NCBI GenBank assembly: GCA_018399555.1
Contig: JAGYOL010000009.1
Coordinates: 1 to 37,694, forward strand
Direction: 5' to 3'
From: Kiritimatiellia bacterium
GTDB lineage: Bacteria; Verrucomicrobiota; Kiritimatiellia; RFP12; UBA1067
Length of the DNA: 37,694 nucleotides
In this document: in pieces, positions 4,064-37,423 of the stretch
How the letters are laid out: each line of letters begins with the position of its first letter
How positions within the stretch are numbered: position 1 is the first letter of the stretch
Position numbers and translations under genes: made by a program
Notes under the pieces: generated by a model
Seen by the model: only the letters and a program-made list of their open reading frames with translations
Database searches by the model: none
What the model was told of the DNA's origin: nothing

Positions 4064-6553
4064 ATGAATTCTTTATTGAAAAAATACGTATTTTTTACTT
4101 TCGGTCTGTGTGTTTTTTGTGCGGAGCTCAGAGGCGACGCGCTTGATGTGGCGCGTGAGGCGTTACGGGATAAACTTTACCGTGTGGCGCAAATGAATGC
4201 AGAGAAGGCACTTGATGAAGAGGGCCTTGGCGATCGTATCAGGGCACTTGAGATTTTGTTGGAATCGCTAGCGCGGCAGCACAAATACATGGAGATGCTG
4301 AGAGCTCTGGAAAGCAATGGAGACGCGGTGATTGATGCTCCGGAGAGTGAATCGCTGCTTTATTGGAGGGTGTTGGCACTGTTTAACACCGAACAGCTGG
4401 ATGATGTTGCCAACATCATTAATTCCGGCAGAGTGGGCACTAATACCGCCTTCGGGGTAACGACTCTGCGGATTGGTGCGCGCACACGTGAATTAACCGG
4501 TGATGTGCCCGGAGCGATTGAGCTGTACAAACTGGTCGATTCGGTTTTTATCAATGAGGCTATACGCAGTGCCAACGCATATGAATGGGCGGTATTGCTG
4601 AACGAGCATGGACGTTATGAAGAAGCGCTTGATGTGCTCAAGAGTTTAGCGCAGATGGAGCTGAACAACGATAATGTCCATGACGGCGCACTTCTGCGGG
4701 GGCGAATACTGATGAGACTGGGGCGGGATGATGAGGCGGCGCGGGTGATGGATGCGCTTGCGATGAATGAGCGGGTGGCGGAAGTACCGCGTGTCGAGGC
4801 TCTTGTTGAAATGAGTGTTTACAAGCTGGATTCTGCGCTCACTAATGAGGCTGTCGCCTACGCACGCTCGGCTTACAGTCGTGCGCAGCTGCCGCAGACC
4901 CGCAGGCTGGCCGGTTATTGGCTGGGTGATCTGCTGTGTCACTCTGGGCAAACTGTCAATGAGGGAGCTCAGCTGATAAAGAATCTGGTTCGTGAATTTC
5001 CGGAAGAGGAAGAGTCGCGCAAAGCGCACCTGAAGCTGGCCGATTCTTTTCTGAATTTAAGTATGCCATCTGAAGCTGCTGCGGAATATCGTATTTTTCT
5101 TGAGACGTATCCTTCATCCACACTTGACAATCGGGTCATGAGGGGGCGTGGATGGGCGCTGTTCCAGTTAAAGCGTTATACAGAGGCGGGGGTTGCTTTT
5201 GCGAAGGCGGCTGAGTTGTCGGTTGATCCTGAGGAGAAAGCGCAGTGTCTGTTTAAAAAATGCGATGCACTGATGGCGGAAAACCGTTTTGTTGATGCTG
5301 CAAGCTCCTATTTGGAAATTAACGCACAGCTGCCTGACACTTCTTTGGCGGGGTTAGCACTTTTCCGCAGTGCAGAGGCATTGGAGCGTGAGAATCTTCT
5401 GAATGATGCGCTGACGCGCTATCGTGAGACAGCGCGGCGTTATCCGCACAGGGATGTGGCGGCTGAAGCCTTGTTGCGCGTGGCCGCCATACAGGCGGAT
5501 GATCGGGAGATCGATCAAGCGATTGACACCTACGGGCAGATTATCGGCAAATTCACCAATACGATGTTCGTCGCACAGGCTCACATGGGGCGGGGTCGTT
5601 CTTATTACAGCAAATATCAGTTTGAAAATGCAATGCAGGAATTTGCCGCGGTAGCTGAGATTGATCCCGGTAGAGTTGATGAAGCCCGCTATTTTCTGAT
5701 TCTCTGTCTGTACGGGCTTGGGCGCGAATCGGAGGCGTTGCAGGCAGCTGAGAAGTATATTATTGATTTTCCTTCATCAGAGTTTTATGCGGACATGTTG
5801 CTTTGGATTGGCAAGTTTCATTTCAACAGAGGAGATTTCAGCTCGTCAATCAAATATTTTGATAACTACGCAAAGAGTTTTCCGGATCGGGTGTGGGCGG
5901 ATGCTTCACTGGTCTGGGTGGCGCGTGCGATGTTTAACAAAGGTGATTTTACAGCTGTTATTGAAACGGTGACTCGGCTGGTCAAGGCATACCCGGAAAG
6001 TTCTCGGTTATCCGAAGCCAGATTTGTTCAGGCCGAGGCTTTGATTGAGTTAGCCCGTTTTGATGCGGCGATCCTGTTACTTGACAATATTCTTGAAAAT
6101 GATCCTGAGAGTCGTTGGGGCCAGATGGCGCTTCTTCGTAAAGGCAACTGCCTTTTTGCTTTGGGAGCCGGTAATCCGTTACGTTATGAAGAGGCGCTGG
6201 CAGTTTATCTGAGGATTGCGCAAGGCGAGGGATTGACATCGGCGATGCTGATTGAAATTTATTATAAAATTGGGCGTTGTCTGGAAAAGCTGGAACGTTT
6301 TGATGATGCTGTGAACACTTACTATTCAGAAGTGCTGCTGCGGTATATAAAGGATCGCTCTTCCGGTACATGGTATGATGAAAGCACACTCAGTCTGGTT
6401 GTACGGGGAGCGTTCAGTGCGGCTGAGATATTTGAACGGCAGGGTCGTTATGAGCAGGCTGTGGGCGTGTTAAAGCGGATTGCAAGGTCTGACAGCGGTG
6501 CTGCTGATGAAGCCGAGAGGCGCATCGATGTGATAAAAAAAATCAGGGATTGA
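4064..6553 (+). CDS. Secreted/periplasmic tetratricopeptide repeat protein
   Basis: N-terminal signal-peptide-like MNSLLKKYVFFTFGLCVFCAELRG, then many TPR-type A/Y/F-rich helical repeats (e.g. AEALLRVAAIQADDREIDQAIDTYGQIIGKF). Confidence 0.88.
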   Translation: MNSLLKKYVFFTFGLCVFCAELRGDALDVAREALRDKLYRVAQMNAEKALDEEGLGDRIRALEILLESLARQHKYMEMLRALESNGDAVIDAPESESLLYWRVLALFNTEQLDDVANIINSGRVGTNTAFGVTTLRIGARTRELTGDVPGAIELYKLVDSVFINEAIRSANAYEWAVLLNEHGRYEEALDVLKSLAQMELNNDNVHDGALLRGRILMRLGRDDEAARVMDALAMNERVAEVPRVEALVEMSVYKLDSALTNEAVAYARSAYSRAQLPQTRRLAGYWLGDLLCHSGQTVNEGAQLIKNLVREFPEEEESRKAHLKLADSFLNLSMPSEAAAEYRIFLETYPSSTLDNRVMRGRGWALFQLKRYTEAGVAFAKAAELSVDPEEKAQCLFKKCDALMAENRFVDAASSYLEINAQLPDTSLAGLALFRSAEALERENLLNDALTRYRETARRYPHRDVAAEALLRVAAIQADDREIDQAIDTYGQIIGKFTNTMFVAQAHMGRGRSYYSKYQFENAMQEFAAVAEIDPGRVDEARYFLILCLYGLGRESEALQAAEKYIIDFPSSEFYADMLLWIGKFHFNRGDFSSSIKYFDNYAKSFPDRVWADASLVWVARAMFNKGDFTAVIETVTRLVKAYPESSRLSEARFVQAEALIELARFDAAILLLDNILENDPESRWGQMALLRKGNCLFALGAGNPLRYEEALAVYLRIAQGEGLTSAMLIEIYYKIGRCLEKLERFDDAVNTYYSEVLLRYIKDRSSGTWYDESTLSLVVRGAFSAAEIFERQGRYEQAVGVLKRIARSDSGAADEAERRIDVIKKIRD

Positions 6554-11817: not shown

Positions 11818-13569
11818 TTATTTTGAATAAACTTTGCGCTCATGATAATGGTTATGTAGCAGTTTATGTGCTTTCTCGCTGAGCGGGGCTCCCAGATATT
11901 CGTCGTATACCTTTTTAATCTGGGGATTCTGGTGTGACATACGCAGCACACAACTCTTGTCATCGCGGTAGATACCGGCAATGCGTTTTTCGCGTACTTC
12001 GTCGGTGGCACCCAGAGGCTGACCGCCGCCGCTGATACATCCGCCGCGGCACGCCATGACCTCGATGAAGTCCCAACGGGGTTTGACCCCGTTTTTACGA
12101 TCTTCGCGGACAGCGTCAAGAACCTGCTCGACGTTCCCCATCTGATGCGCGACGGCGACATTCACCTTGGTGCCTTTGATATCGATCTCAGCCGACTTGA
12201 CACCTTCCATTCCGCGTACAGCCATGAACTCGATCGACGGCGGCTGTTCATCGCCTGTTACCAGGCAGTAGGCGGTACGCAGGGCGGCCTCCATAACACC
12301 GCCGGTCACACCGAAGATCGTTCCCGCGCCGGTGTAGTCACCCATGATGTTATCCGGTTCCTCTTTGGGAAGATTGAGGAAGTCGATGCCGGAGCTTTTG
12401 ATCATGCGGGCCAGTTCGCGTGTGGTCAGCACCACATCGATATCCTGGTAGCCGCTGGCGAACATATTCTCGCTGCGGGTTATTTCAAACTTTTTGGCGG
12501 TGCACGGCATAATTGAAACCATGAAAATTCTGGCTGGATCAAGGCCCATGCGTTCCGCATAGTAGGTTTTAGCCATTACGCCGAGCATCTGCTGCGGTGA
12601 TTTTGCCGAAGAAAAGTTATCGATGAAATCACTGGCATACTTCTCCATCCAGTCAGTCCATGCCGGACAGCAGGAAGTTATCAGCGGCAGGGTTCCTCCT
12701 TTAGTGAAACGTTCGACAAACTCATTGCCCTCCTCCATGATCGTCAGGTCGGCGCTGAAATTTGTATCGAAGACAGCGTCGAAACCTAGTCTTCGCAGAG
12801 CTGCGTAGGTCTCTCCTGTCATGATTTCTCCGGGTTCTCTGTCAAACGCTTCGCCGATTGCGACACGCACTGCCGGGGCTATCTGTACTACGCAGTATTT
12901 CTCATCGTCACAGAGCGCGTCCCAAACCGGGCGGGTGTGATCATGCTCATAGATTGCGCCGACCGGGCAGTGGGCTGAGCACTGTCCGCACTTGATGCAG
13001 GGCGAGTCGTTGAGCGAAACATCGGCGGCAGGTGCGATACGCGTGTTTTCGCCGCGTCCGATGAATTCAAGTGCCCAGACATTCTGCATCTCCTGGCAGA
13101 CAATTGCGCAGCGTCCACACTTGATGCACTTCTCCGGATTCAACACAATTGACGGGGTTGACCGGTCAACCGGAATCGTGGGAACTTCGGCAGGGAATGG
13201 TATCTCGCGGATACCGAAATCGGCGGCGATGTTCTGCAGCTCACAATTTCCGCTGCGGGGGCATTGCAGACAGTCGTTGGGATGATTAGCCAGAATCAAT
13301 TCGAGCACAGCGCGCCGCACTCTGACGATGTCTGAATCATGGGTTTTGATTTTCATGCCGGGGGCAACCTCTGTGGCGCAGGCGCGCAGCAGTTTGGCGG
13401 AACCCTCGTTGCGTACCACGCAGATACCGCAGGCGGCCCAGGGGCGCAAATCCGGATGATAACAGAGAGTTGGAATCTTAATCTGAACCGACTTAGCCGC
13501 TTCCAGAATAGTTGTCCCTGCGGGGACTTCGACGGGTATATTGTTAATTTCTAGTTTCACCATAGACAT
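11818..13569 (-). CDS. hndD: NAD(P)-linked [FeFe]-hydrogenase catalytic subunit
   Basis: 2Fe-2S N-terminus (CYHPDLRPWAACGICVV), NDCLQCPRSGNCELQ, two CxxCxxCxxxC ferredoxin clusters, H-cluster motifs TSCCPAWTDW, MPCTAKKFE and VMACRGGCISGGGQP, then C-terminal small-subunit-like tail. Confidence 0.95.
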   Translation of the reverse strand: MSMVKLEINNIPVEVPAGTTILEAAKSVQIKIPTLCYHPDLRPWAACGICVVRNEGSAKLLRACATEVAPGMKIKTHDSDIVRVRRAVLELILANHPNDCLQCPRSGNCELQNIAADFGIREIPFPAEVPTIPVDRSTPSIVLNPEKCIKCGRCAIVCQEMQNVWALEFIGRGENTRIAPAADVSLNDSPCIKCGQCSAHCPVGAIYEHDHTRPVWDALCDDEKYCVVQIAPAVRVAIGEAFDREPGEIMTGETYAALRRLGFDAVFDTNFSADLTIMEEGNEFVERFTKGGTLPLITSCCPAWTDWMEKYASDFIDNFSSAKSPQQMLGVMAKTYYAERMGLDPARIFMVSIMPCTAKKFEITRSENMFASGYQDIDVVLTTRELARMIKSSGIDFLNLPKEEPDNIMGDYTGAGTIFGVTGGVMEAALRTAYCLVTGDEQPPSIEFMAVRGMEGVKSAEIDIKGTKVNVAVAHQMGNVEQVLDAVREDRKNGVKPRWDFIEVMACRGGCISGGGQPLGATDEVREKRIAGIYRDDKSCVLRMSHQNPQIKKVYDEYLGAPLSEKAHKLLHNHYHERKVYSK

Positions 13570-13587
13570 GGATAGACACCTTTCCGG

Positions 13588-15375
13588 TTAAGAACGTGAG
13601 ACAGCCTGGAATTTGCAGACTTCAAAACACTGTCCGCATTTGATACAGAGTTCCTGATCAATGACATGAGCCTGTTTGCGCTCGCCCTGAATGGCCTGTA
13701 CAGGGCAGACTCTGGCACAGGCGGTGCATCCAACACACTTGTGCGGGTCAATGATGTATCTAAGCAGGTTCTTGCATTTTCCGGCACGACATTTTTTGTC
13801 GTCGATATGCTCGATATACTCATCCATAAAGTAACGCAGGCTGGAAGTGACAGGATTTGAAGCGGTCTGTCCGAGTCCGCAGAGGGATGCACGGCACATA
13901 GCCTCGCTGATATCCTTCATGTTCTGGATATCCTCGGCGGTTCCTTTGCCATCACAGATTTTGGTCAGATAGTTGAGCAGCTTGCGTCCGCCGATACGGC
14001 AGGGTGCACATTTACCGCACGACTCATCCACGGTGAAATCCAGATAGAATTTCGCTACATCCGGAATGCAGTCATCCTCATCCATAACGATCAGACCGCC
14101 GGAACCCATGATCGAGCCGATTTTAGTCAGGCTTTCGTAATCGATTGGCGTATCGAGAAATTTTGGCGGGATCATGCCGCCCGAGGGGCCGCCGGTCTGT
14201 GCGGCTTTGAACTCTTTGCCGTTTTTAATGCCGCCGCCGATATCGAAGATAATTTCGCGCAGGGTAGTTCCCATGGGAACTTCAATCAGACCGGAGTTAT
14301 TGACTTTGCCGGTCAGAGCGAAAACTTTGGTTCCCTTGGTTGTTGCGGTGCCGATCTTGTTGAACCAGTTGGCGCCTTTGAGCATGATAACCGGAACGTT
14401 GGCCAGGGTTTCAACATTATTGATAACCGTCGGACGTCCCCATAAGCCTTTGACTGCCGGGAAGGGCGGTCGGGGTGCCGGCATACCACGTTTACCTTCA
14501 ATTGAAGCCAGCAGCGCAGTCTCTTCGCCGCAGACAAAAGCACCCGCACCGAGGCGCAGTTCAATCGTGAATGAAAATCCGCTGCCCAGAATGTTTTCAC
14601 CCAGCAAACCGTAATCGGTTGCCTGTGCAATCGCGTTTTCAAGCCGGTCAATCGCCAGCGGATACTCGGCTCTGATATAGATGAACCCCTTGGAAGCACC
14701 GATTGCGTAGCCAGCGATAGCCATGGCTTCGAGGATGCTGTGAGGGTCGCCCTCCAGCGTGGATCGGTCCATATAGGCTCCCGGGTCGCCCTCATCGGCA
14801 TTGCACACCATGTATTTCTGTCCATCCGGCTGGGCCGCCGCAAAAGACCATTTGACGCCGGTGGGGAAGCCTGCGCCACCGCGACCACGCAAACCGGAGA
14901 TCTTGAGTTCTTCAATGACATCTTCGGGTTGCATTTCAAAGAGGACCCTTTCAAGTCCCTTGTAACCGTCACGGGCGATATACTCGTCAATCTTATCAGG
15001 ATCGATCACGCCGCAGTTGCGTAGCACAATGCGAAACTGCTTCTGATAAAAGTCTATCCCGTCGATTGCGACATTACCTTTGCTTTGGGCGTTATCATAC
15101 AGCAGACGGCTGACGACGCGCCCCTTGATGATGTGTTCCTGGATGATCTCGGAGGCGTCCTCCGGACGAACTTCGACATAGAAGGTGTCTTCGGGCAGAA
15201 TTTTGACGATAGGTCCTTTTTCGCAGAATCCCAGACAGCCGGTGCGGACAATCTGAACGTCGTTGATCAATCCGTTCTCTTCAACTTCCTTTTTCAGTGC
15301 GTCAACCAGGGCGATTCCCCGATTGGATTCGCAGGCTGTGCCGCCGCAGACCAGAATGTATTGTTTATATGCCAT
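13588..15375 (-). CDS. hndC: NuoF-like flavoprotein subunit of NADH/NADP-dependent hydrogenase
   Basis: N-terminal thioredoxin-like 2Fe-2S domain, LRGRGGAGFPTGVKWSF, CNADEGDPGAYMDR, ESCGKCAPCRIGG, C-terminal 2x[4Fe-4S] (CVGCTACARVCP, CIKCGQCFEVCK). Confidence 0.95.
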   Translation of the reverse strand: MAYKQYILVCGGTACESNRGIALVDALKKEVEENGLINDVQIVRTGCLGFCEKGPIVKILPEDTFYVEVRPEDASEIIQEHIIKGRVVSRLLYDNAQSKGNVAIDGIDFYQKQFRIVLRNCGVIDPDKIDEYIARDGYKGLERVLFEMQPEDVIEELKISGLRGRGGAGFPTGVKWSFAAAQPDGQKYMVCNADEGDPGAYMDRSTLEGDPHSILEAMAIAGYAIGASKGFIYIRAEYPLAIDRLENAIAQATDYGLLGENILGSGFSFTIELRLGAGAFVCGEETALLASIEGKRGMPAPRPPFPAVKGLWGRPTVINNVETLANVPVIMLKGANWFNKIGTATTKGTKVFALTGKVNNSGLIEVPMGTTLREIIFDIGGGIKNGKEFKAAQTGGPSGGMIPPKFLDTPIDYESLTKIGSIMGSGGLIVMDEDDCIPDVAKFYLDFTVDESCGKCAPCRIGGRKLLNYLTKICDGKGTAEDIQNMKDISEAMCRASLCGLGQTASNPVTSSLRYFMDEYIEHIDDKKCRAGKCKNLLRYIIDPHKCVGCTACARVCPVQAIQGERKQAHVIDQELCIKCGQCFEVCKFQAVSRS

Positions 15376-15389
15376 TGTAATCTTCCTGC

Positions 15390-15779
15390 TTAGCGAATGA
15401 TATCCATCGCGGGTTTGTCACAGATGTGGTTATCGATCAGCTTTCTGCTGATGACATGCCGATTGATAATCTTCCTGGCCAGTTCGGTGTCGACATTGCC
15501 GTAGATGACGGCGGGCATTCCCTCCACAATCACCTCCACGGTCGGCTCCGAGTGGCAGAACCCCATGCAGCCGGTTTGACGAACCAGCACATTGGAGATG
15601 TCCCGGGCGGTAAGCTCCTCGATTATCGTGTTGAAGGTCTCTTTCGCGCCGGCTGCGATTCCGCAGGTGCCCATGCCAACTATGATCTGTGCGCTTTTGT
15701 TCTCGGGATCGCGCATATTCATAGCTTTCTGTTTCTCATCGCGCAGTTTGCGCAGGTCGTCAAGTGTCAGCTTTGCCAT
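15390..15779 (-). CDS. hndB: Thioredoxin-like [2Fe-2S] subunit (HndB-like)
   Basis: IIVGMGTCGIAAGAKET..., VRQTGCMGFCHSEPTVEVIVEG cluster ligands; located between hndA/HATPase and hndC. Confidence 0.9.
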   Translation of the reverse strand: MAKLTLDDLRKLRDEKQKAMNMRDPENKSAQIIVGMGTCGIAAGAKETFNTIIEELTARDISNVLVRQTGCMGFCHSEPTVEVIVEGMPAVIYGNVDTELARKIINRHVISRKLIDNHICDKPAMDIIR

Positions 15780-15788
15780 ATTATCTCC

Positions 15789-16331
15789 TTACTGTAATAA
15801 ATTCTCTTCCTGTGCTTTTATAAAATCTTTGGTCAGAGCAATGTTTGTGATCTGTTCCAGTGAACCCAGCGTTTCAATCAGTTCTGAACGTGATATTCTG
15901 TATTCGTCCTTCAAACTCTTTCTGATCACCTTCAGCTCATAGTCACCCTCGAAAGTCAGCAGCCCCGTCAGGGTCAGGGCGATATCGCCGGGCGGCGGGG
16001 TATCCAGGTGTCGTCGGTCAAAGCTGAACCCGACCTCAGTGCCGTGTTCCGGCTGCGAAGTGATCTTCATGCTGCCGTTGACCGCTTCAGCGGTCTGTTT
16101 CAAAAGGGCCAGTCCCAGCCCGACCCTGCGATGATCGTGTTTGCCGGCCTCCGTGAAGAAGGGATCAACCGCCGACCGCAGGGTCTCGCTGTTCATTCCC
16201 TTGCCATTGTCTGAAACCGCAACTTCAATTTTTTCCGGGAGCGTGCTGATTTCAAGTGTGATCAGTGACGCACCTGCTTCAACGGAGTTCTGCACGAGGT
16301 CGGCAATGTAGTCACAGACAGTAGCGTGCAC
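15789..16331 (-). CDS. HATPase_c-domain ATP-binding protein (histidine-kinase-like ATPase without a kinase core)
   Basis: N-box DLVQNSVEAGAS, G1 box VSDNGKGM, GLGLALLKQTAEAVNGSMKI G2 box. No phospho-acceptor His/dimerisation domain seen. GTG start at 16331 (AGAAGG upstream) is the probable start. Confidence 0.82.
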   Translation of the reverse strand: MHATVCDYIADLVQNSVEAGASLITLEISTLPEKIEVAVSDNGKGMNSETLRSAVDPFFTEAGKHDHRRVGLGLALLKQTAEAVNGSMKITSQPEHGTEVGFSFDRRHLDTPPPGDIALTLTGLLTFEGDYELKVIRKSLKDEYRISRSELIETLGSLEQITNIALTKDFIKAQEENLLQ

Positions 16332-16335
16332 AACA

Positions 16336-16830
16336 TCAGACCTTCTTGATATCGGCAATAATCGCGTGCAAGTCCTGTGGCTGAACCTTGCCGTAAACCT
16401 TGCCGTTGATCACCATCACCGGAGCCAGTCCGCAACAGCCGATACACCGAACCGCTTCAACCGAAAACTCACCGTCGGGTGTAACTGTGTTCAGCCCTAC
16501 ACCTAAAATCCCCTCGATTTCCGCGATGATGTCCTCTCCGCCCTTCAGATAACATGCCGTTCCCATGCAGACCTGAATCTGATTGCGACCGGGTTTTTTG
16601 AGTTTGAAGAAGTTGTAAAAGGTCATAACCCCGTATATCTTGGCCAGCGGCACATCCAGTCGGTCGGCAACTTCAAACGCGATCTTACGCGGTATATACC
16701 CGAACTCCTGCTGTACTCTGTGCAACACCATAATCAGGTTGCCCGGCTTAGTTTTCCATTCGGCTATAAATTCAATCAGCTCTGGCGTCAGAGTCTCAAC
16801 CTTTTCCACCGGGGTAGTTTCGGAACTCAC
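16336..16830 (-). CDS. hndA: NuoE-like [2Fe-2S] subunit
   Basis: LHRVQQEFGYIP, GVMTFYNFFKLKKPGRNQIQVCMGTACYLKGG, VRCIGCCGLAPVMVING. GTG at 16830 with GGAGGTG upstream looks like the best start; an in-frame ATG exists at 16863. Confidence 0.92.
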   Translation of the reverse strand: MSSETTPVEKVETLTPELIEFIAEWKTKPGNLIMVLHRVQQEFGYIPRKIAFEVADRLDVPLAKIYGVMTFYNFFKLKKPGRNQIQVCMGTACYLKGGEDIIAEIEGILGVGLNTVTPDGEFSVEAVRCIGCCGLAPVMVINGKVYGKVQPQDLHAIIADIKKV

Positions 16831-17013
16831 GGTTTCACCTCCATCGATTTTTAATATTGCCACCAGCCCAGCTGAGTGGTCGAAAAATTGCGCAAAATTA
16901 TGTCAAATAGGACGCATTTCTGCAAAGTAATAATCGCAAAAATTTAAAAATACCGGGTTTTAATGCTGTTTTCCGTCCAATTGATACAGTTTTATCGATA
17001 TTTAGAGTTCATT

Positions 17014-33774: not shown

Positions 33775-35259
33775 ATGAGATTTGAAAGACCTAAACGAAA
33801 AACATTTCCGTTAAACGCCATGTTGGAAGACCGCAAGGTGGTGGTTGTCGGAGGGGGACGCGTCGGGCAGCGCAAGGTGGAGCTGCTGCTTGATGCCGGT
33901 GCTGATGTGACTTTAGTTTGCCCTGACTGTGTGGCTGAACTGGGTGAGCTGGCCGTATCGGGAGCTGTTAAATGGTTGTCGAAGCGTTTTGAGGATGGTG
34001 ATCTTCAGTCGGCGGCGATGGTTTTCGCATGTACCGATGACAAATATGTTAACCGCCATATTCTGGAGGTTGCCAAATCGGCGCACGTGCCGTGCTGCTG
34101 CGCCGACGGTAACTGGCCGGACGGTGATTTTGTCACACCGGCTATTTTGCGTGACGGACAGGTGCTGATATCGGTTTCAACCAGCGGTAAATCCTGTCGG
34201 CAGTCACGCCTGATCAAAGACAACCTCAGCAAGCATCTCAGTTCAATTGCCAGCTCGGATCTGCTGGTTCTGGGAATCAGTCACGAACAGGTCGCCATGG
34301 AGGCGCGTGTTGCGTATCACCAGCTGTGGCGAGAACGCGAGACGCTGGGAGCTATGATCTCGCAGGTCTGGGGCGTGCATGAGTTTTTTCTTCTGAACAC
34401 ATGCAACCGCGTGGAACTGGTGGCGGCGATCGCCAGAGAGTCGGCCACGAGCGGTATTCTGCGGCGGATTATGCGCTTTGATGAGCTTTGGCCGGATCAG
34501 TACTACATGAAATTCGGTTATGACGCCTACGAGCATGTCTGTAATGTCACCGCCGGTATTCGCTCGCAGACACCCGGTGAGTTTCATGTTGTTTCGCAGG
34601 TCAAGGAGGCGGTGGATGAAGCCTGTGCCAGAGGTTGGGGCGGTTCAATCATCCGTGAGCTGTGCGACACCATGTTGAAAGTTTCACGGGAAATTCGGCG
34701 CACTGTCGAACCGCTGTTGGATGTGACCGAGATTGAAGAGGTCTGTATGCGGTATATGCTCAGAGATATCAGAGCACTATCGCAGAAAACCGTACTCGTG
34801 GCCGGAACCGGAGTAGTAGGACGGGGATTGATTGATGGGTTGCATCGTCGCGGTGTATGCTGCATCTGGGGCTATCACGCCAATGCTCCTGCAGATCCCC
34901 CTGATGATCTGCAGGGCTTAATTCAGTTTGATGAACTTGATCGGGTGTTGCCTGATGTGGATGTGGTCGTCAGCGCGGTGGATGTTGAATCACCGCTGAT
35001 CAGCCATGACAACCATCAGGATTTACTCAAAAGAGACTCTCCGGTGACATTGATTGATCTGGGTATGCCACGTAATATTGATCCGGCTCTCGGACGTGAA
35101 ATAAAAAATGTGGAAGTAGTTGATCTGGATATGCTCAAAAACTGGCATCGTGAATCAACCGGGACTCTTGAGAAAGTGATGAATCTGTGCGCCGAAGTTG
35201 TTGAGCGTAACCGCAGTGCTTACGAGCGGATTCGCGACAGCATGCAGGGGGAACTCTAA
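33775..35259 (+). CDS. Fusion protein: precorrin-2 dehydrogenase (SirC/CysG-N-like) + glutamyl-tRNA reductase (HemA)
   Basis: N-terminal FPLNAMLEDRKVVVVGGGRVGQRKVELLLDAGADVTLVCP ... SVSTSGKSCRQSRLIKD; from about 34250 LLVLGISHEQVAMEARVA, FFLLNTCNRVEL (catalytic Cys), GEFHVVSQVKEA, DLGMPRNIDPAL. Confidence 0.9.
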   Translation: MRFERPKRKTFPLNAMLEDRKVVVVGGGRVGQRKVELLLDAGADVTLVCPDCVAELGELAVSGAVKWLSKRFEDGDLQSAAMVFACTDDKYVNRHILEVAKSAHVPCCCADGNWPDGDFVTPAILRDGQVLISVSTSGKSCRQSRLIKDNLSKHLSSIASSDLLVLGISHEQVAMEARVAYHQLWRERETLGAMISQVWGVHEFFLLNTCNRVELVAAIARESATSGILRRIMRFDELWPDQYYMKFGYDAYEHVCNVTAGIRSQTPGEFHVVSQVKEAVDEACARGWGGSIIRELCDTMLKVSREIRRTVEPLLDVTEIEEVCMRYMLRDIRALSQKTVLVAGTGVVGRGLIDGLHRRGVCCIWGYHANAPADPPDDLQGLIQFDELDRVLPDVDVVVSAVDVESPLISHDNHQDLLKRDSPVTLIDLGMPRNIDPALGREIKNVEVVDLDMLKNWHRESTGTLEKVMNLCAEVVERNRSAYERIRDSMQGEL

Positions 35260-35320: not shown

Positions 35321-37423
35321 ATGAATTTAAGAGTCGGTACCAGAGCAAGTGCGTTGGCACTCATTCAGACCAGGGACGCCCTGCGAAGGTTGCGCGAGCT
35401 CTTTCCGCAACTGAATTTTGAGGAAGTCCTTCTCGAAACCCCCGGTGATCGTGATCTTGAGAGCGATCTGCGTCAGGCACCATCGGATTTTTTCACTCGC
35501 GACTTGGATGATGCCGTCAGAAACAAGGTTGTCAACCTGGCGATTCACAGTGCCAAGGATTTGCCGACCGAGGTGGCGGATGATCTGGACTGGTTTTGGC
35601 TGCCCTGGTGTGAGGATCAGCGGGATGCCTGGGTGCTTGCCGCCGGTGGCACGCTCTCCGAACTCCCCGCCGATCCGGTTATAGGTGTTAGCAGCGATCG
35701 ACGTGCCGAGTATGCCGTCCGACGTTTTCCCGCCGCCCGTCTGCATTCAGTCCGGGGCTCAATTGTGCAGCGCCTTGAACAGCTGGACCACGGTTATTTT
35801 GACGCAGTCATCATGGCTGGCGCGGCGATCATCCGTCTCGGCCTTTGTGATCGTGTGACGGAGTGGATACCGCGCGGCGAGCTTGATGTTCCGCCCGGTC
35901 AGGGTTACCTGGCCGTGACGTTTGCGAAGAATGATGAGCGAATGTGTGCGTTGCGTCGCTATTTTGTCAAAGCGGTACGGTTTGTCAGTGCGGGAGTCGG
36001 AAGTGCCGATTACTGCACCTGCGGCGGAATCAGTGATCTGCAGGCGGCGGATATCTGTCTGTATGACGTGCTGATGGATGATGCGCTGTTGAAACATCTG
36101 CCTGCAAAAGCGGAACGTATTTTTGTCGGTAAACGTTGCGGAGCGCACAGTCTGCAGCAGAGCAGCATCACAAAGATGATTGCGGACTATGCACGTGCGG
36201 GCCGCAGAGTTGTGCGTCTGAAGGGTGGCGATGCCGGTCTGTTCGGCAGACTGGCCGAAGAAACCGCACTGTTGGATGAACTGGACATTCCTTATCATGT
36301 CAGGGCGGGGGTCAGTGCGCTGGCCGTGGCGACAACCGCAACCGGGATGCTGCTGACGCGTCGCGGGGTCTCCCGGGGGTTCTGCGCGCTTACCCCGCGG
36401 GCTGCTGAGGGAGAGGTGACCGGAATTGCGTTCGAAACCCGTGCGGCTTTGCCGCTGGTTCTTTTTATGTCGATTAAGGTGGCGCCCTCCATGGCACAAC
36501 AACTGCTTGCCGAGGGGTGGGCGGAATCAACTCCTGCCGCTGTTGTTTTCAATGCCGGCGGCGATGATCAGCGTGTTGTATCGCTGAGTCTGGCTGAGTT
36601 GCAGGATGAACCCCCGGAATTAAAGGACTCCGCACCCGGTCTGCTGGTTATCGGCAGTGCTGCAAAGTCGCTCTTTAAACAGAAGCGTGGAGTTCTGCAG
36701 AGCAGGCGGGTGTTGCTGACATGCAGCGAGGGCATCATTGAGAAAGCCGTACGTGCCGTAATTGACTGCGGGGGTGTACCGATTGCCATGCCTATGATCC
36801 AGCTGCGTCCCTGTGAGCAGACAGCTGCCAGATTGGCCGCTCTGCGGGACTATGAGTGGGTTGCACTGACCTCCCCCGCATCCGCCAGGATATTCATGCA
36901 CGCCGTGCTTGACGCGGGCGTTGATCTGCGGCAGCTGCCGCGCATTATGACCTGCGGTGCCGGCACCTGCGCTGCACTTGCGCCTTTCGGCATCCGTCCG
37001 GATATCACTCCACCCATGATCTACAGTGCCGCCGGATTGATCGATGCACTGCAGGATACCAATTTTGAAGGTGTCCGCGTGCTGCGCCTGCGCTCTGAAA
37101 TTGCCGGAACATTGCTTGCCGATGTTCTGCGCGAACTGGGGGCACAGGTTGATGACGTGATTCTCTACCGCAATCATCACGTTGAGTATCAGAAAATACC
37201 GGATTTCGATATTGTCTTCTTCGCCAGCGCTTCCGCAGTCGAATCTTTCACTGCTCAGCACAATCCCGGGACATTGGCTGATAAATATGTTCTTGCAATC
37301 GGAGAGCCGACGTCCGATTATCTCGAAGAGCGTGGTATCCGGTGTGATTGCGTTGCCGAACGGGCAACCGTCGAGGGAGCGATTGACACATTGGCGCGCC
37401 GTTTCACTCTTCCATCCGGGTGA
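35321..37423 (+). CDS. Trifunctional fusion: domain-3-less hydroxymethylbilane synthase (HemC) + uroporphyrinogen-III C-methyltransferase (CobA/SUMT) + uroporphyrinogen-III synthase (HemD)
   Basis: HemC part (about 35321-35970): RVGTRASALALIQT, IHSAKDLPTE, GVSSDRRAEY, HSVRGSIVQRL, VPPGQGYLAV. SUMT part (about 35971-36680): AGVGSADYCTCGG, ICLYD, AERIFVGKRCGAHS, RRVVRLKGGD, LTRRGVSR. HemD part (about 36690-37423): RRVLLTCSEG, WVALTSPASARIF, CGAGTCAAL, VRVLRLRSEIAGTLLADVLRELGAQVDDVILYR, DIVFFASASAVESF. Confidence 0.88.
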   Translation: MNLRVGTRASALALIQTRDALRRLRELFPQLNFEEVLLETPGDRDLESDLRQAPSDFFTRDLDDAVRNKVVNLAIHSAKDLPTEVADDLDWFWLPWCEDQRDAWVLAAGGTLSELPADPVIGVSSDRRAEYAVRRFPAARLHSVRGSIVQRLEQLDHGYFDAVIMAGAAIIRLGLCDRVTEWIPRGELDVPPGQGYLAVTFAKNDERMCALRRYFVKAVRFVSAGVGSADYCTCGGISDLQAADICLYDVLMDDALLKHLPAKAERIFVGKRCGAHSLQQSSITKMIADYARAGRRVVRLKGGDAGLFGRLAEETALLDELDIPYHVRAGVSALAVATTATGMLLTRRGVSRGFCALTPRAAEGEVTGIAFETRAALPLVLFMSIKVAPSMAQQLLAEGWAESTPAAVVFNAGGDDQRVVSLSLAELQDEPPELKDSAPGLLVIGSAAKSLFKQKRGVLQSRRVLLTCSEGIIEKAVRAVIDCGGVPIAMPMIQLRPCEQTAARLAALRDYEWVALTSPASARIFMHAVLDAGVDLRQLPRIMTCGAGTCAALAPFGIRPDITPPMIYSAAGLIDALQDTNFEGVRVLRLRSEIAGTLLADVLRELGAQVDDVILYRNHHVEYQKIPDFDIVFFASASAVESFTAQHNPGTLADKYVLAIGEPTSDYLEERGIRCDCVAERATVEGAIDTLARRFTLPSG

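Follow-up and report, generated by a model that had tools for sequence, protein, structure and literature searches.

The window analyzed here, by which we mean the whole stretch of 37,694 nucleotides, encodes a fusion of hydroxymethylbilane synthase (HMBS, HemC), uroporphyrinogen-III C-methyltransferase (SUMT), and uroporphyrinogen-III synthase (HemD) in which the HemC part consists of domains 1 and 2 only and has lost domain 3 along with the cysteine that holds the dipyrromethane cofactor. The type is shared by a large set of relatives that keep the binding pocket and, in several single-contig genomes, have no other HemC. On balance, we think it probable that this is an active HMBS-SUMT-UROS enzyme with a noncanonical way of priming the chain, most likely without a fixed thioether in the sequences of the window type (group 1) and most likely with the anchor moved to the position of E. 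coli residue 172 in a second, diverged group (group 2).

Few metabolic enzymes are as conserved as HMBS, and to our knowledge, every HMBS studied has domain 3. A thioether-linked dipyrromethane on an invariant loop cysteine of that domain is the accepted basis of both priming and translocation, the covalently bound cysteine on its mobile loop drawing the chain, as it grows, past the catalytic Asp (PMC8561815, PMC7907807). In the open-access literature, we found no report of an HMBS without domain 3 or of the consequence of such a loss.

Architecture of the fusion and the missing domain

The reading frame is open throughout and contains all the motifs that the sequence-only reading of this DNA had listed, and the HemC-SUMT-HemD fusion proposed there was confirmed by the ORF, Pfam, and fold prediction (Table 1). 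PF01379 (Porphobil_deam) covers window residues 3 to 208 (model positions 1 to 205 of 207; E = 4.9e-47), PF00590 (TP_methylase) covers residues 221 to 427, and PF02602 (HEM4) covers residues 479 to 688 (E = 1.5e-39) and identifies the HemD part; all three score far over their cutoffs. The middle domain has the TP-methylase fold and the invariant SUMT residues D249 and M383 (alignment A1) of SUMT/CobA enzymes, and it reaches 183.3 bits against TIGR01469, whose cutoff of 185 is exceeded by the relative L006.

Table 1. Features of the window discussed in the text, with positions counted from its first nucleotide
Feature	Position	Strand	Basis
Operon gene upstream of the HemC fusion: precorrin-2 dehydrogenase (SirC type) and glutamyl-tRNA reductase in one protein	33775..35259	+	Pfam, NCBIfam
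HemC(domains 1+2)-SUMT-HemD fusion gene, 700 aa	35321..37423	+	ORF, Pfam, AlphaFold2
HemC domains 1 and 2, residues ~1-215	35321..35965	+	PF01379, phmmer, Foldseek
Lid of the active site (residues 44-60), with altered sequence in two-domain HemCs	35450..35500	+	Alignment
HSAKD, residues 76-80; Asp80 = E. coli catalytic Asp84, 100% conserved	35546..35560	+	Alignment
SSDRR, residues 124-128; Arg127/128 = E. coli cofactor-site Arg131/132	35690..35704	+	Alignment
Ala168 = E. coli Ala172; Cys in 23/23 group 2 sequences	35822..35824	+	Alignment
SUMT domain, residues ~218-450	35972..36670	+	PF00590, TIGR01469
Cys232, first Cys of CTC; 69/95 full-length group 1 proteins	36014..36016	+	Alignment, tree
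Cys246, second SUMT strand; 79/95 full-length group 1 proteins	36056..36058	+	Alignment, tree
HemD domain, residues ~459-694	36695..37402	+	PF02602

The loss of domain 3 and its anchoring cysteine, likewise claimed from the sequence, was upheld by Pfam, AlphaFold2, and Foldseek. The window protein has no match to PF03900 (Porphobil_deamC), the family of domain 3, even at an E value of ≤1; only positions 1 to 210 of the 293 in the NCBIfam hemC model TIGR00212 align to it; and phmmer pairs its HemC part with residues 6 to 212 of E. coli HemC (1PDA), ending ahead of domain 3. The AlphaFold2 model (62-row alignment; pLDDT of 92.0 and pTM of 0.91) likewise matches only domains 1 and 2 of the PBGD fold in E. 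coli HemC (1PDA/1AH5) over 207 columns at an rmsd of 1.9 Å. The invariant C242 that holds dipyrromethane in the E. coli enzyme sits in the missing domain and has gone with it. Domain 3 needs about 90 residues, while the chain passes from HemC to SUMT after about residue 215, with about 10 residues between the end of HemC domain 1 and the first SUMT strand; since this junction is too tight and the three matched domains fill the chain, domain 3 has not been relocated within the protein. For the SUMT part of the model (residues ~218 to 450), Foldseek aligned about 238 columns to solved SUMTs at an rmsd of about 13.8 Å, against 1.9 Å for the HemC part, and the SUMT lobes seem to be placed differently from those of the solved enzymes, through either rearrangement or prediction error.

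The genome is derived from a metagenome, lies in 274 contigs, and is 82% complete, and an in-frame deletion of domain 3 might therefore have been an artifact of this one assembly. That explanation is refuted by the same architecture in a genome of the same genus (61% identity; L006) and in about 100 homologues, and by the same junction in about 120 homologues, some of them in single-contig genomes.

Short HemCs have been cataloged already, as the length of NCBIfam NF002202 (PRK01066; hydroxymethylbilane synthase, 241 positions) shows, a family that is likewise too short for domain 3 and that we take to be chlamydial. It is unfused, in contrast to the window protein, which scores 152.6 bits, under the curated cutoff of 251, and so falls outside it; the group 2 protein L080 scores 176.9 bits against NF002202 and 157.7 bits against the full-length model. 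CobA-HemD and HemC-(CobA-HemD) fusions combine the same three activities in one chain, and the parts of PMC11237513 that deal with them report two HemC-(CobA-HemD) events in Euryarchaeota and describe no loss of domain 3. The siroheme synthase CysG has a SUMT half with the same invariant residues, but the fusion partners of SUMT here are HemC and HemD; the gene next door joins the dehydrogenase, of SirC type, to glutamyl-tRNA reductase.

Distribution of two-domain HemC in the phylum

HemC was found in 188 of the 289 genomes of our phylum sample, and these were sorted by hand, from the result rows and retrieved sequences, into 85 with two-domain fusions and 103 others. Two-domain HemC is common across the class of the window and is present also in the class of G230. 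The protein of G230 has alignment values identical to those of L004 from Lentisphaerae bacterium GWF2_49_21, and the two genomes are very probably one and the same. No occurrence was found on viral contigs, and the HemC matches on plasmids were all below 60% identity, those listed being mostly annotated hemC.

Group 1 comprises 100 HemC-SUMT-HemD sequences and group 2 comprises 23 diverged ones, of which four (L069, L070, L075, and L080; Pfam was run on L080) are HemC-HemD proteins without SUMT. In a HemC tree built by a quick method, a branch with an SH-aLRT value of ≥95 separates the two groups jointly from the canonical HemC sequences of this phylum, and further branches that reach the same value set off each group on its own. 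One group 2 sequence of 241 amino acids (L125/L153, genome G513), which adjoins cysN-, cysD-, and cysH-like genes, looked like a two-domain HemC standing alone but was rejected as such: SUMT and HemD pieces continue in other frames, and the frame breaks are probably sequence errors. Two genomes hold two genes each, with a group 2 HemC-HemD (L069) and a group 1 fusion whose HemC part has a gap (L082) in G163 and two group 1 fusions (L137 and L138) in G300.

In genus g4 of the window's own family, a HemC-SUMT-HemD fusion (L076, genome G204) has domain 3 and its cysteine, although the family otherwise has the two-domain form. Its SUMT part is just 34% identical to that of the window. The gene seems to have been fused independently or to be a replacement, and the HemC matches in further g4 genomes are similarly distant. 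As this fusion keeps domain 3, fusion and domain loss are separable.

In the window's own genome, the fusion is the single PF01379 gene, there is no canonical hemC, and the best PF03900 match is at chance level (E = 0.27). PF03900 was found in none of the 85 two-domain genomes and in 95 of the 103 with an ordinary HemC, a comparison among related genomes for which a Fisher value is merely descriptive. The eight canonical genomes missed put the sensitivity of PF03900 in this phylum at about 92%, and a very divergent free domain 3 is for that reason still conceivable. A partner protein, one of the options in the sequence-only reading, might supply domain 3 in trans and would be the least radical fix, given the general knowledge that all studied enzymes have this domain. 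With the family missing at useful E values from the window's own genome and from every two-domain genome searched, we consider such a partner very improbable. In each of five single-contig genomes (G081, G342, G187, G150, and G117), the fusion is the only PF01379 gene; four of these genomes (G081, G187, G150, and G117; 93 to 98% complete) are also without PF03900, and G342 lay outside the PF03900 sample.

The binding pocket and the pathway context

Measured against canonical HemC (TIGR00212, PF01379 plus PF03900; 1PDA and 1AH5), the two-domain family shares the fold of domains 1 and 2 and almost every cofactor- or substrate-binding residue; it differs in the absence of domain 3 with its Cys242 loop and in changes to the lid and to Met82. 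With E. coli HemC as the reference (sequence identical to 1AH5), R11, S13, Q19, D46, F62, H80, S81, K83, D84, S128, S129, R131, R132, R149, R155, A170, R176, Q198, and G199 are kept in 99 to 100% of the 100 group 1 sequences. This set includes the catalytic Asp and the cofactor-site Arg and Lys residues (R11, K83, R131, R132, R149, R155, and R176). In both groups, Met82 has become Ala in 100% of the sequences, G173 is mostly Ala, and the lid has lost Lys59, has Asp in place of Gly60 (95%), and has gained a conserved Asp, D45. Group 1 additionally has Val or Ile for T127, and more than half of the group 2 members have lost R131.

Gene order points to tetrapyrrole synthesis. In relatives, the operon reads sirC-hemA, hemC-SUMT-hemD, and hemB, with hemB directly after the fusion gene in L003, L004, and L145; the window contig ends after the fusion gene. 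The upstream protein, which in L003 and L004 lies at positions 4425 to 6026 and 4406 to 5917, respectively, matches the GlutR_N and NAD domains of glutamyl-tRNA reductase and has no match to the GlutR dimerization family, its C-terminal (dimerization) domain being missing. Two enzymes of one operon, HemC and glutamyl-tRNA reductase, have each lost their third domain.

In G150, the fusion lies within a cobalamin cluster with hemL, hemB, cbiL, cbiK, cbiC, cbiD, and btuR, together with a CbiE/T-like gene, a TP-methylase/CbiG fusion, and CbiH-like, cbiA-like, and cobQ-like genes. In G081, it stands beside ahbB and ahbC (above the cutoff) and an ahbD-like gene, and in the group 2 genome G187, a cysH-like gene, cysD, and cysN are immediately upstream. 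Of 16 fusion genomes searched for the siroheme reductase family PF01077, 13 have it, among them two from the window's genus. In the window's own genome, at its 82% completeness, neither this family nor PF17805 (AhbA/B type) nor corrin methylases were found, and the only further TP-methylase is RsmI-sized. A multisubunit [FeFe]-hydrogenase cluster elsewhere in the window (positions 11818 to 16863, minus strand; an Fe_hyd_lg_C large subunit with Nuo51-like and thioredoxin-like 2Fe-2S subunits) is consistent with a fermentative anaerobe.

With the fusion as the sole HemC in complete genomes that carry genes for B12, siroheme, and Ahb-type heme, those pathways need it to work, and together with the conserved residues this gene context makes the fusion very probably active. 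The sequence-only reading had allowed that the protein might not be an active HMBS. A dead HemC part, with hydroxymethylbilane made by some other, unrecognized enzyme, would fit the loss of a residue that is otherwise held invariant in HMBS. Such a part would hardly be expected to keep its catalytic Asp and cofactor-site Arg and Lys residues almost without exception in 100 sequences, or to be the only PF01379 gene in single-contig genomes with these pathways, and we think this explanation most doubtful.

Cysteines, priming, and what the family may tell us

If the enzyme is active, as the context strongly suggests, then noncanonical priming follows, since without the mobile cysteine loop the holding and translocation of the chain must differ from those of known HMBS. 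The CTC motif at the junction had been offered as a candidate anchor, and its distribution does not support this role: the first cysteine, Cys232, is absent from 26 of the 95 full-length group 1 proteins, with at least seven changes on the tree, and Cys234 was not present in the other homologue rows inspected. Cys545 is present in 67 of the 95. No cysteine at any position is universal among these proteins, and seven group 1 members have no cysteine at all in the HemC part (residues 1 to 215). A fixed thioether anchor in group 1 therefore appears unlikely from the alignment, and the primer would most likely be held without one.

It could be that group 1 has a relocated covalent anchor as well, one that replaces the domain 3 loop with Cys232 or with Cys246 or Cys248 of the SUMT N-lobe, depending on lineage. 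Cysteine occurs at position 232 or 246 in 93 of the 95 full-length proteins, and the two exceptions (L139 and L140) have Cys248 together with Cys73, so that every full-length group 1 protein examined has a cysteine at one of the three positions. The pTM of 0.91 also indicates a defined packing of HemC against SUMT, and group 2 shows that a fixed cysteine can arise elsewhere. Against this, the three positions were chosen after inspection of the data, none of them is universal, Cys232 is repeatedly gained or lost, and Cys246 does not compensate for it (opposite-direction changes in 0.1 of 5 independent pairs); Cys246 and Cys248, moreover, lie on the SUMT strand by the invariant Asp249 and not obviously in the HMBS cleft. 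We regard an anchor in the SUMT N-lobe as rather unlikely. Cys73 and Cys232 showed a weak opposite trend that was not significant.

Group 2 presents a different picture. All its members have a cysteine where E. coli has A172, and in nine of them, it is the sole cysteine of the HemC part. In Table 1 of a molecular-dynamics study (PMC3945110), A172 contacts the polypyrrole chain at the P4M to P6M stages. This cysteine is a strong candidate for a relocated anchor.

The reading that we prefer, an active fusion with noncanonical priming, would work as follows. Four porphobilinogens would be polymerized by domains 1 and 2 of HMBS, and cyclization by HemD would then give uroporphyrinogen III. SUMT would methylate this compound to precorrin-2, a substrate that could be oxidized to sirohydrochlorin by the SirC half of the neighboring protein. 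In group 1, a dipyrromethane might be gripped noncovalently by the intact Arg/Lys pocket, or the chain might be begun directly on porphobilinogen; the acidic lid residues D45 and D56 would, speculatively, suit a chain that keeps its aminomethyl end. In group 2, the thioether anchor would have moved to the cysteine at E. coli position 172. The stricter proposal that group 1 makes hydroxymethylbilane with no covalent dipyrromethane at all, through either a noncovalent primer or a porphobilinogen start with a final deamination of aminomethylbilane, while the group 2 anchor has moved into domain 2, we put forward tentatively.

If true, the lack of a covalent dipyrromethane in group 1 would break the rule that tetrapyrrole assembly depends on a self-made, thioether-linked cofactor. 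A large bacterial lineage without the anchor separates chemical need from historical accident, and priming, counting to four, and translocation can be tested in a natural two-domain enzyme, with group 1 (no fixed cysteine) and group 2 (Cys172) as a natural experiment. A compact enzyme leading from porphobilinogen to precorrin-2 may also help B12 or heme production in engineered cells. For these uncultured bacteria, the findings point to a fusion with a two-domain HemC as the source of the ring at the core of vitamin B12, siroheme, and heme.
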